From: an uncultured Prevotellaceae bacterium
GTDB taxonomy: Bacteria > Bacteroidota > Bacteroidia > Bacteroidales > Bacteroidaceae
NCBI GenBank assembly: GCA_902799765.1
Contig: CADCBZ010000004.1
Span: 17,604 to 81,603 of the forward strand
Direction: 5' to 3'
DNA: 64,000 nt
This document shows positions 4,807 to 15,701 of this stretch, in pieces. The number at the start of each line of letters is the position of its first letter. Position 1 is the first letter of the stretch. A program made the position numbers and the translations under genes. The notes beneath the pieces were generated by a model. It searched no databases and had not been told where the DNA came from. It saw nothing but the letters and a program-made list of their open reading frames with translations.

Positions 4807-6468
4807 ATGGAACAAATACCAAGCTTTAACGCTCTCATTCAGAAGAGTGTCATTGACAACTGGGACCGCGATGCGCTGACCGACTTTAAGGGACAGACGC
4901 TACAGTTTCATGATGTTGCCAGAAAAATCGAAAAACTGCACATCCTTTTTGAGAACAGTGGCATTCAGAAAGGCGACAAGATCGCTATGTGTGGCCGCAA
5001 TTCATCACAATGGGCCGTAGCATTCATTGCTACCCTCACTTATGGTGCCATCGCAGTGCCCATCCTGCATGAGTTCAATGCAGAGCAGATCCACAACATT
5101 GTAAACCATTCTGAGGCCCGTCTGCTTTTCGTGGGCGATCATGTGGCAACGATCATCGATCCTCAGGCGATGCCCACACTGGAAGGTATCATCAACAACC
5201 CCGACTACTCGCTGATGATCAGTCGTACCGACAAACTGACCTATGCCCGTGAACATCTGAACGAACTCTATGGTAAGAAGTTCCCGAAATACTTCCGTAA
5301 GGAGCATGTGGACTATTACAAGGAGGAGAGTCCGGAAGAGTTGGCTGTCATCAACTACACCAGCGGAACAACAGGCTTCTCCAAGGGTGTGATGCTCCCC
5401 TATCGTGCGCTTTGGTCTAATTATGATTTTGCTTTGAATGTACTTGGCAAACAGATCAAGGCAGGCGATCCTGTCATCTCGATGCTGCCGATGGCCCACA
5501 TGTATGGTATGGCTTTCGAGTTCCTTTTTGAGTTCCTCCATGGCTGTCATGTATTCTACCTAAACCGCATCCCGTCGCCTGCAATCATTGCCCAAGCTTT
5601 GCAGGAGGTGAAACCGGTCATCGTCATTGCCGTACCGCTGATCATTGAGAAGATCGTGCGAAAGAAGGTCTTCCCGAAGATCCAGAACAATCGCATGCGC
5701 CTGTTGCTCCAGATGCCAGTCATCTCTAAGAAAGTCCGTGAGATGATCTGTCAGGAAGTACTGAAGGCATTCGGTGGAAGAATGTATGAAGTCATCATCG
5801 GTGGTGCTGCCCTGAACCAGGAGGTTGAGCAGTTTCTGAAGCGTATCGACTTCCCCTATACCGTCGGCTATGGTGCAACGGAGTGCGCACCGATTATCTG
5901 TTACAGAGACTGGCACACCTTCGCCCCTGGCTCATGTGGACGGGCTGCCTTGCACCAGAAGGTGGAGATTGACTCTCCCGATCCTCGTCGCATTCCCGGT
6001 GAGATCCTCACTAAGGGACCTAACGTGATGCTCGGCTACTATAAGAATCCTGAGGCCACAGCAGAAACCATTGACCAGAACGGCTGGTACCACACTGGAG
6101 ACCTCGGTACGATGGATGATGATGGTAACGTCTATATCAACGGACGCTCAAAGAATATGCTCCTCGGTCCTAACGGTCAGAACATCTATCCTGAGGAAAT
6201 TGAGGACAAGTTGAACTCTATGACAATGGTGATGGAGAGTATCGTCGTACAGCGTGACACCAAGTTGGTGGCCCTTGTTCACCCGGATATGGATGAAGCC
6301 AAGAACTTAGGTTTCTCTATAGAGGATCTGAAGAACATCATGGACCAGAACCTGAACGGACTGAATGAGATGCTTCCTGCCTACGAGAAGATCACCGAGA
6401 TAGAGATCCATGAGGATGAGTTTGAGAAGACTCCTAAGAAGTCGATTAAACGATACCTCTATCAATAA
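4807..6468 (+). CDS. AMP-forming acyl-CoA ligase/synthetase, second tandem paralogue
   Basis: This 553-residue ligase aligns with the preceding protein from end to end without obvious large gaps. The two share long identical blocks such as the YTSGTTGFSKGVMLPYRALW P-loop region and the IRKKVFPKIQNNRMRLLLQM-type linker (here V in place of I). A5 reads YGATE rather than YGTTE, and A7 is YHTGDLG. Only 6 nt separate it from gene one, and a bidirectional terminator follows, so the pair is one transcription unit. Differences cluster in the substrate-facing middle, for example VEFIINRLGKEVK against YDFALNVLGKQIK. Divergent chain-length preference after a tandem duplication is the simplest reading, but it is inference. 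Confidence 0.87.
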   Translation: MEQIPSFNALIQKSVIDNWDRDALTDFKGQTLQFHDVARKIEKLHILFENSGIQKGDKIAMCGRNSSQWAVAFIATLTYGAIAVPILHEFNAEQIHNIVNHSEARLLFVGDHVATIIDPQAMPTLEGIINNPDYSLMISRTDKLTYAREHLNELYGKKFPKYFRKEHVDYYKEESPEELAVINYTSGTTGFSKGVMLPYRALWSNYDFALNVLGKQIKAGDPVISMLPMAHMYGMAFEFLFEFLHGCHVFYLNRIPSPAIIAQALQEVKPVIVIAVPLIIEKIVRKKVFPKIQNNRMRLLLQMPVISKKVREMICQEVLKAFGGRMYEVIIGGAALNQEVEQFLKRIDFPYTVGYGATECAPIICYRDWHTFAPGSCGRAALHQKVEIDSPDPRRIPGEILTKGPNVMLGYYKNPEATAETIDQNGWYHTGDLGTMDDDGNVYINGRSKNMLLGPNGQNIYPEEIEDKLNSMTMVMESIVVQRDTKLVALVHPDMDEAKNLGFSIEDLKNIMDQNLNGLNEMLPAYEKITEIEIHEDEFEKTPKKSIKRYLYQ

Positions 6469-13000: not shown

Positions 13001-13076
13001 AAACTTGTCCTCCTTCTTTTTTGTTATTTATTCTACCAAGCCTACAGCAAAAACCGTGCCTAAAACAAAGGAATAT

Positions 13077-13084
13077 TATCTTTG
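13077..13084 (+). promoter_or_regulatory. -7 promoter-like element entering the repeat island
   Basis: TATCTTTG followed by C matches TAnnTTTG on the plus strand, 50 bp before the palindrome array. No open frame of note follows, so any product would be an RNA through the array. Confidence 0.4.
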
Positions 13085-13134
13085 CTTTGTTCTGATAATC
13101 TTTACAGTGTGTTCAGATGGCATCTACGAGAGAA

Positions 13135-13214
13135 GGAGATAATCTCCGTTATATAGAAGGGATTATCTCTTTCCTTCGTGGAGATGATCTCCATTAGTCG
13201 TGGAGACTATCTGG
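13135..13214. repeat. Four palindromes at 22-bp spacing, consensus GGAGATnATCTCC
   Basis: Near-palindromic 13-mers begin at 13135 (GGAGATAATCTCC), 13158 (GGGATTATCTCTT, degenerate), 13180 (GGAGATGATCTCC) and 13202 (GGAGACTATCTGG). The steps are 23, 22 and 22 bp, about two helical turns, so all would face the same side of DNA. Units three and four also share flanks (TCGT before, AT-rich after). This looks like an operator array or a small tandem repeat. No regulator is identifiable nearby. Confidence 0.6.
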
Positions 13215-13281
13215 ATAAGGGAAAGAAGGCATTTCTATGAAAATAATGACTAAATTATTTGGAAATCGACGATTTTTGTTG

Positions 13282-13289
13282 TATCTTTG
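13282..13289 (+). promoter_or_regulatory. -7 promoter element for the plus-strand island transcript
   Basis: TATCTTTG followed by CA is a strong -7 match. It precedes a region with extensive hairpins ending at the terminator at 13579-13620. A nine-codon frame (ATG at 13308) overlaps the left arm of the first hairpin. Confidence 0.6.
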
Positions 13290-13310
13290 CACCGTTAATC
13301 AAAACTATGA

Positions 13311-13427
13311 AACAGATACAACAGATACACAGATAAAATCTAAGATATCTCGCGTACCGCGCGCCTATATGCGTATACGCGGTACGCGAGGAAATATAGA
13401 AACTATCTGTTATATCTGTTATCTGTT
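13311..13427. repeat. Large inverted repeat: AACAGATA arms around a GC-rich palindrome
   Basis: The left arm (13311-13335) contains three spaced copies of AACAGATA or ACAGATA, and the right arm (13404-13427) holds the matching TATCTGTT copies. Inside, TCGCGTACCGCG (13350-13361) pairs perfectly with CGCGGTACGCGA (13378-13389) around a 16-nt loop. The whole folds into one long stem with small bulges. Confidence 0.75.
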
Positions 13428-13462
13428 ACTTACCAATGTGCTATATAATAGCAATATTTCCT

Positions 13463-13518
13463 GGATTTAATTCCAGCAATTGCTACATTTAAATGTAACA
13501 AGTTCCAGAATTAAATCC
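13463..13518. repeat. 56-bp imperfect palindrome
   Basis: Two 28-nt arms pair at about 23 of 28 positions around the perfect 14-bp centre TACATTTAAATGTA (13484-13497). The outer arms are GGATTTAATTC (13463-13473) and GAATTAAATCC (13508-13518). There is no loop at the centre, so it may form a cruciform or, in RNA, a long hairpin. Confidence 0.7.
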
Positions 13519-13578
13519 CGCAAATGACACTACTTATTGACAAACTCACGCGCTTCTATTCCACACAAATCTATAAAA

Positions 13579-13620
13579 TAGGCGCAATAACCTCACGGTC
13601 GTGCGCCTAGAAGATTTTTT
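13579..13620 (+). terminator. Intrinsic terminator inside the island
   Basis: TAGGCGCA (13579-13586) pairs with TGCGCCTA (13602-13609) around a 15-nt loop, followed by a T-run at 615-620. On the minus strand the hairpin is also followed by a T-rich segment, so it may work in both directions. Confidence 0.6.
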
Positions 13621-13774
13621 AATTGATTTTATTAACTAATTAATCCTGCTGGATGCCTTCACAGGCTACATCAGGCTTCTAAACTTAAGACACCCACAGG
13701 ATTTGTGGGCATATCATTCAACTTGATTCAAGTCGTATATTATAGACATCCCTACGTCAATAACAAAAACACAC

Positions 13775-14018
13775 GAAAAAAGCGTGGCACTATTTGCCCG
13801 CTATTGAATCGAAGGTTGTAGGATACCCGCTAAATGATAACTGACAATAGTCCACGCAGATATGCTATACCTCCACAAAGGGGCTAAATAACATAATGCG
13901 TGAACGAAGATTGCCGTTAATCCCTTTAGCTGAAACTTCCTACATTTCGATTCAGGACAACAAGCATTTCGCTCTTTTCTAAATAGTGTTCTCTCCAGCA
14001 CACCTGCCAGACATTGAA
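13775..14018 (-). ncRNA. Candidate structured RNA, minus strand, about 244 nt
   Basis: A -7 element at 14024-14031 points into this segment, and a six-T run (13776-13781) follows its last stem. Long-range pairs are visible in RNA sense: CACTATTT (13981-13988) with AAATAGTG (13788-13795), TGAATCGAA (13946-13954) with TTCGATTCA (13805-13813), and TGTAGGA (13938-13944) with TCCTACA (13817-13823). A competing stem, GCGTGGACTATT (13846-13857) with AATAGTGCCACGC (13782-13794), uses the same 3' bases and would act as the terminator. It lacks the rnpB, tmRNA and SRP RNA signature motifs I know. Confidence 0.5.
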
Positions 14019-14023
14019 CGGTG

Positions 14024-14031
14024 CAAAGATA
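14024..14031 (-). promoter_or_regulatory. -7 promoter element for the minus-strand island transcript
   Basis: The minus strand reads TATCTTTG followed by CA, a strong TAnnTTTG match, with AT-rich DNA upstream (14032-14160). No protein-coding start lies at a sensible distance downstream. Confidence 0.6.
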
Positions 14032-14161
14032 CAAAATAATATGTAAAAACCAAAACTTTTAGAGAAAAAAGTGACACTATCGGAATAAATTCTCAATTAT
14101 GGATTAAATAAATTGTAGAGGTTAGCCTAATTATATTGTCTATTAAATTTCCTTTTGTTGC

Positions 14162-14207
14162 AAAAAATAAAACAGGTGCTGCGTGTCGTTAAGACACACG
14201 CAAGCAC
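14162..14207 (-). terminator. Intrinsic terminator of the histidine acid phosphatase gene
   Basis: In minus sense, GTGCTTGCGTGTGTC pairs with GACACGCAGCAC (14176-14207) with small bulges, followed by a T-rich tract complementary to 14162-14173. It is the first terminator after the phosphatase stop at 14424. The phosphatase mRNA would therefore carry the 22-bp repeat array in its 3' untranslated region. Confidence 0.6.
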
Positions 14208-14222
14208 TCATCTTATTCTTTC

Positions 14223-14257
14223 ATTATAATCTTTATCTGTATTATCAAGATTATAAT
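14223..14257. repeat. Perfect 11-bp inverted repeat
   Basis: ATTATAATCTT (14223-14233) and AAGATTATAAT (14247-14257) form perfect arms. The perfect GC palindrome GCGCGTACGCGC follows at 14276-14287. The role is unknown. Confidence 0.55.
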
Positions 14258-14330
14258 AATTATCTGCATTATAAGGCGCGTACGCGCGTAAGGCAAAGAA
14301 AAGTAAAACGTAATGAATTGGCTTGCGTTT

Positions 14331-14407
14331 AGTTACTTTTTGCAGTGCAATTAGTTACTTTTTAGTCTGCAAAAAGTTACTTTTTACGATGCGATTAGTT
14401 ACTTTTT
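14331..14407. repeat. Four direct repeats AGTTACTTTTT at exact 22-bp spacing
   Basis: Identical 11-mers begin at 14331, 14353, 14375 and 14397, separated by 11-bp variable segments that are themselves partly related (GC-containing, ending in ATT or AAA). Because 22 is not a multiple of three and no conserved frame exists, the array is not coding. The units are too short for CRISPR. The regular two-turn spacing resembles binding sites for a direct-repeat regulator, or a small tandem repeat. It lies just after the phosphatase stop. Confidence 0.7.
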
Positions 14408-14423
14408 GCGAGACTTTGAAAAA

Positions 14424-15701
14424 TCAATTTGTCGGCGCGTCCTCAATATTTTCGTATTCGCTCATGGCTTCGGCCATGCGGTTGTCGAGGTCGGAGAGAC
14501 TGTAGAGACCATCTTCGTTGGCAGTAAGACCTTCGATGGTGACGGGCATTACCATTGGTGGCTCTTCAACGGATAGCAACGTGCGACCTTGCAACTGTGA
14601 GACGCTCTGATATACAAGATTGATGGCGACATATTCATCGCAGCCGTCTGTCCACTTCTCAAAGACCAGTTTCGAGCCGATGGGTGTGTGCAGTTCCAGG
14701 GCATGTTTGGTCTCGGGATAGTTAAAACCTAATGCAGCACCTATGCTGGCCAGGTTGGAATCGTGACCGCAGAGGAACATGAACTTACGACCATCATTGT
14801 GCAGCTCTTCGCGGATACGGCTCACCAGTGGATAGGCCAGATTGACGGCAGCGCTGTGGGTAGTGAAAAGTAAAGCGTCATAGACTTCCTTCACACCGCA
14901 GATGGCGCGCCACTGTTCTTCTGTCAATTCATGACCGAAGACTGTCATGCTCTCACTCTCATAACACTGCAGCACCATCGCATCAGCCACGCTGTTGGCC
15001 AACGTGAAACCGCCAGTCATCTTCGGCTCACTGCCCTTCTCCAGTTTGAACTGCGTATCGTCGTAAAAGAAATGGGTCGTATCGTTCGCAGCGGCTGGCG
15101 AATGAGCCATGTCGATGACTTCTTCCATCAGTGTCAGTGTGGGTTGAACGGATGTCATCAATACCCGAGGACCTCCATGCAGGGCATTGATCTCACTGAG
15201 TACCTGTTGACGGTAAGCGTCGTTCATCTTCGTGAACTGCGGGGTAAAAACGGGATCCATCTTATCCTCAGCGAGTTTATGAGTGATCTCCACATTGGCG
15301 AATGGCAGGAATCCTGCAGAGAAGTATTTCGCCGTGGCAAACGTGCGCTGACGAGAGTTGGCATAGAAGAGCACCTCATCGCCCTCAGGACGATAGTTCT
15401 CAGGTAGCAGTCCCTCGCCTACCAACCACTTGCGGAAGAACTGGCCCATCTCCGTCTCCAGTACACCACCACGCAGTGACAACTGGCTCGACGGCGACGA
15501 CCACTTGAACCACTCGTATGGTGTGACCCGCTTGTAAACAGCCCCACCCGATGTCAGCGGAGAGCGGATGTTATGGCGGCTCATCACCACCACTTCTTTC
15601 AGTTGATACTTTGCACGGAAATCATCCGATCGTTTTGTCTGTGCAGAGAGGTTTATAGCAACCATCATGGCGGCTGCGGCCATTATGAAATACTTCTTCA
15701 T
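14424..15701 (-). CDS. Exported histidine acid phosphatase (phytase/AppA-like)
   Basis: This 425-residue protein has a signal peptide (cleavage after NLSAQ, about residue 21). It carries the clade-2 histidine phosphatase signature: the nucleophile H43 in SRHNIRSP, with N in place of the usual G, and the proton-donor motif HDSNLAS in the C-terminal half. Such enzymes remove phosphate from phytate, glucose-1-phosphate or other esters outside the cytosol. It is divergent from a 5'-nucleotidase gene, each with its own -7 element about 70 bp apart. Together they suggest a periplasmic phosphate or nucleotide scavenging locus. The substrate is not determinable here. Confidence 0.87.
   Translation of the reverse strand: MKKYFIMAAAAMMVAINLSAQTKRSDDFRAKYQLKEVVVMSRHNIRSPLTSGGAVYKRVTPYEWFKWSSPSSQLSLRGGVLETEMGQFFRKWLVGEGLLPENYRPEGDEVLFYANSRQRTFATAKYFSAGFLPFANVEITHKLAEDKMDPVFTPQFTKMNDAYRQQVLSEINALHGGPRVLMTSVQPTLTLMEEVIDMAHSPAAANDTTHFFYDDTQFKLEKGSEPKMTGGFTLANSVADAMVLQCYESESMTVFGHELTEEQWRAICGVKEVYDALLFTTHSAAVNLAYPLVSRIREELHNDGRKFMFLCGHDSNLASIGAALGFNYPETKHALELHTPIGSKLVFEKWTDGCDEYVAINLVYQSVSQLQGRTLLSVEEPPMVMPVTIEGLTANEDGLYSLSDLDNRMAEAMSEYENIEDAPTN

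Follow-up and report, generated by a model that had tools for sequence, protein, structure and literature searches.

Among the regulatory RNAs of Bacteroidota, few have an established function. The 6S RNA is a long rod-shaped molecule with its own promoter, which binds RNA polymerase and templates pRNA. The HMP-PP riboswitch class is, by the title of its report (PMC6478431), terminator-embedded, its aptamer sharing sequence with the terminator. Two Prevotella-only candidate RNAs, HMP2_905 and HMP2_6893 (205 and 139 bp), are reported to lie mostly near uvrC and to overlap on opposite strands (PMC8040213, Genome Biol 2021). The window analysed here, a stretch of 64,000 nucleotides from an uncultured Prevotellaceae bacterium, carries on its minus strand, at about 14019-13728, a member of what is apparently a large and uncatalogued RNA family. 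At the gathering score, Rfam 15 gave no match over the RNA core in 36 sources including the window, the DUF805 RNA beside it being the only one found; by E-value (up to 10 for the island, up to 1 for six sources), only sub-threshold, chance-like matches overlapped the RNA. The 6S and 6S-Flavo models (RF00013, RF01685) did not match it, and searches of an open-licence library turned up no account of the wider family.

The RNA lies in the interval 13001-14423, which by crude gene calls is the window's longest gap, at 1,423 bp against 429 bp for the next, with a G+C content of 36% against 47% for the window. The initial annotation had described a gene-free island of 1.4 kb in a window where most gaps are under 100 bp, and both statements held (49 of the 56 gaps, by the same crude calls). 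It had also proposed an RNA-producing element rather than decay, which was borne out for the minus-strand RNA only, on the basis of conservation and not of expression. The RNA itself, a rod of roughly 250 nt that is the largest minus-strand structure of the island, had not been singled out. This rod folds better than all 200 shuffles (z -6.3), and its segments folded alone gave -25.9 (X to D), -26.4 (U to X) and -20.6 kcal/mol (5' strand to U). The features of the RNA and of the island are collected in Table 1.

Table 1. Coordinates, in the window, of the minus-strand RNA, its structural parts and the repeats that surround it.
Feature	Position	Strand	Basis and remarks
Promoter -7 element TATCTTTG of the RNA	14031-14024	-	Motif search; TAnnTTTG upstream in the family
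P0, 5' hairpin of the RNA	14019-13988	-	Predicted fold; similar 5' hairpins in relatives by eye
Core RNA	13977-13728	-	Span of model R2, 88.9 bits
P1, 5' strand AAGAGCG	13976-13970	-	Fold I: pairs with 13784-13778; fold II: with strand U
P3 hairpin	13948-13932	-	Loop GUAGGA (13943-13938) kisses the P5 loop
Strand U	13906-13898	-	Fold I: pairs with X; fold II: with the 5' strand
Strand X	13857-13845	-	Fold I: pairs with U; fold II: with D
P5 hairpin GGU[AUCCUACA]ACC	13827-13814	-	Loop UCCUAC (13823-13818) kisses the P3 loop
Strand D	13796-13782	-	Followed by the U-run 13781-13776; X:D terminator-like
Tail hairpin, GUGA (GNRA) loop	13607-13581	-	Kept in three subfamily-A copies
Dispersed palindromic repeat	13447-13529	none	Own-genome search; outside the RNA
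22-bp AGTTACTTTTT array, four units	14329-14407	none	Repeat search; outside the RNA
Four near-palindromic GGAGATNATCTCC-like sites, 22-bp spacing	13135-13214	none	Two by tool, two by eye; upstream of dnaJ/cbpA

Two models were used to search for the family. Model R1 was built from two sequences (the window copy and that of genome G020) and contained the kissing pairs as nested pairs; it matched 43 of 299 genomes of the genus, including that of the window. Model R2 was built from 26 sequences without any pseudoknot, its alignment (A6) comprising 26 of the 74 rows then in hand, selected for alignability. At an E-value of 1e-3, R2 matched 82 of 150 genomes of the genus, 74 of 247 of the order and 7 of 198 in a sample of the phylum, counts that include the genome of the window and weak scores; at 60 bits or more, as counted from the listed scores and with the same genome included, 36, 48 and 3 genomes remained. 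Scores below about 45 bits were considered weak, since antisense matches of true copies reach 39 bits. The six other genomes of the phylum sample that matched were all of the same class, and none of 20 genomes from outside Bacteroidota matched R2, with the same model positive in control genomes. Ten genomes were reached via recorded loci and nine of them matched R2, eight of the ten having been picked for already holding a copy.

Genome and viral contigs were also scanned with a pattern demanding the loop pair CTGGAC/GTCCAG. On genome contigs at least 117 matches were obtained, at least 29 loci (30 matches) being confirmed by R1; among the confirmed loci listed, 20 had a named source, of which 19 were Bacteroidota and one was labelled Clostridium (L157), possibly a mis-binned contig. 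On viral contigs, R1 confirmed 3 of 72 matches, one of which (L287) is the same sequence as a Prevotella genome record. Two exact window-RNA patterns matched 15 and 2 viral stretches, which were unrelated and were rejected, and searches of phage and plasmid collections for the RNA yielded no match. The family is one of Bacteroidales and, more rarely, of other orders of the same class.

Several copies may occur in one genome. P. vulgatus ATCC 8482, a commensal that is in culture and has been sequenced, gave nine R2 matches, seven of them above 50 bits, and among six copies compared two were identical and the other four strongly different. The identical copies (L456 and L461), about 2.3 Mb apart, agree in the RNA, in the shown flanks and in the beginning of the ORF downstream, which suggests that a mobile segment was duplicated. 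The genome of the window holds a second, weak R2 match of 43 bits at C21:6363-6600, in which the kissing loops are intact and which is followed after 3 nt by an ORF.

Two mutually exclusive folds of the RNA are both conserved. Fold I is rod-like and comprises P1, P2, P3, P5, a long-range helix, the U:X helix and P6 with its pseudoknot, the hairpins P3 and P5 meeting by a kissing loop of 6 bp. Fold II consists of two adjacent hairpins, 5':U with a left arm and X:D with a right arm, again tipped by P3 and P5, and retains the kissing helix and P6. Since strands U and D compete for both X and the 5' strand, only one of the folds can form at a time. In the 26 training sequences, 88.1% of the cells paired in fold I, against 37-45% in slid controls, and 189 cells were changed on both sides, against 31-47. 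In the alignment of the training sequences, fold II reached 92.2% (37-44% when slid), with 90 cells changed on both sides (9-29 when slid), support that follows in part from that for fold I, because the four strands involved (5', U, X, D) are nearly repeats of one another.

The comparison was extended to 89 sequences outside the training set, in an alignment (A8) fitted to fold I without its pseudoknots, so that the counts for the nested helices lean towards this fold. Here 91.2% of the cells paired (40-47% slid, 69.7% shuffled), at least one change affecting both sides was seen for 55 of the 61 pairs (27-36 slid, 43.3 shuffled), and 1,120 cells were changed on both sides (162-260 slid, 326.7 shuffled). 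The kissing helix is a cleaner test, since the pseudoknots were left out of the fit and the helix is absent from R2: 97.8% of its 505 cells paired in all 89 rows, of which those found by R1 or the pattern scans lean towards the helix because the kissing pairs were built into both. Dropping the rows from the pattern scans (18) and from R1 (10) left 61 rows found by R2 alone, where 97.0% of 338 cells paired and 58 were changed on both sides. The six P. vulgatus copies have four loop types, each matching its own partner by eye. The pseudoknot between P6 and strand D was weaker in the wide set, with 84.8% and 61.9% of the cells pairing in its two parts. At least five T in the 6 nt after strand D were present in 57 of the 89 sequences; the U-run was weak or missing in the remaining 32, and a universal U-run terminator was therefore rejected, termination being unable to account for the whole mechanism. 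The RNA has two alternative folds that share strands, one of them terminator-like, as is characteristic of riboswitches and attenuators.

A promoter motif and a gene accompany the RNA in most copies. Of 88 family members, 74 have TAnnTTTG upstream of P1, where shuffles predict 7.3. An ORF of 60 aa or more with an ATG start between -50 and +120 of the RNA end was present in 112 of 136 loci, against 19 on the mirrored side, in a set from which L149, L126 and L287 were left out as duplicates, with at least one place counted twice (L342/L394) and a few matches below 50 bits. These ORFs start mostly at +1 to +20 from the last hairpin or RNA end. The family therefore has the conserved structure ahead of same-strand start codons by which cis-regulatory leaders are recognised; the window copy does not, being among the 24 loci without such an ORF, as are its two nearest relatives. 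Signal-like N-termini, assigned by a crude ad hoc rule, were found in 77 of the 112 downstream ORFs; among 464 other ORFs taken from 61 of the loci they numbered 151 (odds ratio 4.6, p 4e-12). By Pfam, 8 of 110 downstream proteins matched leucine-rich repeat families (LRR_5, LRR_8), while the other families, among the 25 of 67 shown, had one or two members each, including outer-membrane barrels, BACON, CsgG, peptidases, fimbrillin-like proteins, an EcoRI-type methylase and a radical SAM protein. The genes of these 110 proteins share no single pathway.

The window copy and those of G020 (contig C27) and G280 (contig C11) form subfamily A, which lacks an ORF of the counted type behind the RNA and has a conserved tail ending in the GNRA-loop hairpin. 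A blastn search with the window RNA against 149 other genomes of the genus matched eight, of which G020 alone is a real relative; the other seven were rejected, the promoter stretch alone being common to them. The G020 copy is 80% identical to the window RNA (fold z -5.8) and lies between dtd and uvrC, away from cbpA; the G280 RNA adjoins the same genes, so that uvrC is a neighbour in two of the three copies. From the conserved tail, the 3' end of the window copy is probable at the tail hairpin, and this copy is probably a stand-alone transcript of about 430 nt which, like the rest of the subfamily with no gene directly behind, would act in trans or represent a leader without its former gene. 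The gene cbpA lies about 580 bp downstream on the same strand, and read-through into it is possible.

We consider it moderately probable that the family represents a bistable cis-acting leader RNA, of which the window copy would be a stand-alone variant. Transcription would begin near P0, and the RNA would choose between its two folds co-transcriptionally. Fold II would end in the terminator-like X:D hairpin, lowering read-through where the U-run is present; in fold I, P1 would take up the strand at the U-run and strand D would be freed for the pseudoknot with P6 near the start codon, allowing expression to continue. A trigger favouring one fold, be it a small molecule, a protein or the folding rate, would make the RNA a switch for the gene behind it. 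Only 4 unpaired columns, among 202 match columns in 89 sequences, were conserved at 90% or more, a scarcity that points to a small ligand no more strongly than to a protein, an RNA contact or folding kinetics. More tentatively, the family could be a class of RNA switches working as a branch-migrating four-way junction, in which the rod and the two-hairpin fold interconvert around the fixed kissing arms and a cue sets the balance, controlling a regulon rich in surface and secreted proteins, with subfamily A as the variant acting where no gene follows. For the Bacteroidota cell surface, a 250-nt RNA that has kissing arms, is present in several copies per genome and is biased towards exported proteins would amount to a new layer of regulation.

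The alternative that survives best, although we regard it as rather doubtful, is a constitutive 5' leader that would protect the mRNA or aid the start of translation in Bacteroidota without any sensing. The upstream promoter motif, the peak of start codons 1-20 nt behind the last hairpin, the very diverse downstream genes and the scarcity of conserved unpaired bases are all consistent with such a leader, but a pure stabiliser would not need two mutually exclusive folds, both of which are kept, and the frequent terminator-like hairpin with its U-run would be superfluous to it.

A trans-acting or mobile-element RNA, riding with integrating elements and having the nearby genes as cargo, seems improbable. 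Among 41 R1 loci, 13 hold a gene cluster with the sampled member DUF3871 and 9 one with a sampled serine resolvase, with differing genes behind the RNA; no common partner gene was found in these loci beyond the DUF3871 and resolvase elements, and the search downstream of the cargo for another conserved RNA part returned a shared terminator and related genes only. In Prevotella elements (L081-L103 and others), a DUF3871 gene and a small serine resolvase were observed together with a variable gene block right behind the RNA, which contains lipoproteins and radical SAM proteins (names partly by eye). Mobility would also fit subfamily A, with no gene behind the RNA, and the few viral contigs that carry it, one identical to a Prevotella genome record.

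The surroundings of the window copy point in the same direction. Pfam identifies the neighbours of the island as a cbpA-like DnaJ-domain protein, a branch-2 histidine phosphatase (PF00328) and a 5'-nucleotidase. When the cbpA interval was compared among relatives, as the initial annotation had suggested, cbpA adjoined the nucleotidase gene at a spacing of about 100-180 bp, without island or phosphatase, in 8 of 21 cbpA loci fetched from other genomes of the genus; the phosphatase gene was found in none of the 21, the contig of L431 ending inside cbpA. Because cbpA and the 5'-nucleotidase gene are neighbours in these eight relatives, the island and the phosphatase gene (about 13062-15700, ends by eye) are, on gene order, an insertion relative to them. 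Against mobility, a member of the DUF3871 cluster was not seen in the fetched stretch of 28 of the 41 R1 loci, four of the six P. vulgatus copies differ strongly (the other two being identical), and in 112 of 136 loci the ORF keeps a fixed position with respect to the RNA.

Very improbable is an element acting at the DNA level, such as a recombination or replication site, where the single-strand fold and not the RNA would matter. The inverted repeats are strong and the antisense strand of true copies also scores; however, much higher scores are reached by the sense strand, the pair columns widely contain G-U pairs, and the promoter motif upstream of P1 and the start codon on the other side both accompany the structure.

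Two of the other elements of the island are found apart from the RNA. The palindrome, of roughly 70 bp (TTTGCGGGATTTAATTC...GAATTAAATCCAGGAAA), recurs at 16 other places in the same genome (L002-L008, L041-L048); the 22-bp array with the AGTTACTTTTT core has a related array at G000:C10:98661-98747 (L036) and shorter similar stretches on contigs C12 and C84. No second copy of the GGAGATNATCTCC-like site array was listed in the own-genome search; these sites look like operator sites for a dimeric regulator. The initial annotation had counted three strong -7 elements in both orientations, which were recovered as TATCTTTG at 13077 and 13282 on the plus strand and 14031 on the minus strand, and at least five inverted repeats, of which ten pairs were listed. 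Of its two four-unit arrays with a 22-bp period, that at 14329-14407 has four units, while in the other (13135-13214) two units came from the repeat search and two were added by eye; the sequences of the two arrays are unrelated. The looser TAnnTTTG is only modestly enriched in the island, since its 5 matches on both strands compare with 1.75 expected and a 95th percentile of 4 in mononucleotide shuffles. Behind the plus-strand TATCTTTG at 13282, a perfect GC-rich hairpin (CTCGCGTACCGCG...CGCGGTACGCGAG) lies among AACAGATAC repeats (13282-13430), a region without any match beyond the island in the own-genome search. The stretch 13296-13625 folds strongly (z -9.5), and the terminator-like hairpin at 13581-13607 of the plus strand has its T-run several bases distant. 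The island is, by these comparisons, a patchwork of unrelated pieces. That the whole interval forms one organised regulatory system, as was first proposed, deserves almost no credence, since its parts share a location but the palindrome and the AGTTACTTTTT array are dispersed repeats, unrelated to one another, that occur separately elsewhere in the same genome, and the RNA occurs without them. Dispersed, mutually unrelated repeats were the outcome that the initial annotation itself had named as refuting a single system, and by that criterion the idea fails.

Compared with known systems, the family resembles 6S RNA in being a long rod-shaped RNA with its own promoter, and differs from it in having no Rfam match, several copies per genome and a usual position before genes. 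The sharing of strands between fold I and the X:D hairpin recalls the HMP-PP riboswitch, as far as the title of that report goes (PMC6478431), whereas the family described here lacks a single downstream pathway and has two arms joined by a kissing loop. The DUF805 RNA (RF03081) lies directly behind the RNA in one genome (L393:4380-4445 and 5344-5412; L345 is the same place) and holds a GGAGUCCAGAA(A)CC / GGAGUCCAGAACC-like stretch resembling the P5 hairpin; it is a separate family of 68 positions that does not cover the RNA core, and a shared ancestry or an interaction between the two is possible. HMP2_905 and HMP2_6893 share with two of the three subfamily-A copies the neighbourhood of uvrC, while a kissing loop, a two-state fold or a wider family is not described for them in the sections of PMC8040213 consulted; compared by size, taxon and neighbourhood only, they may be subfamily A itself.
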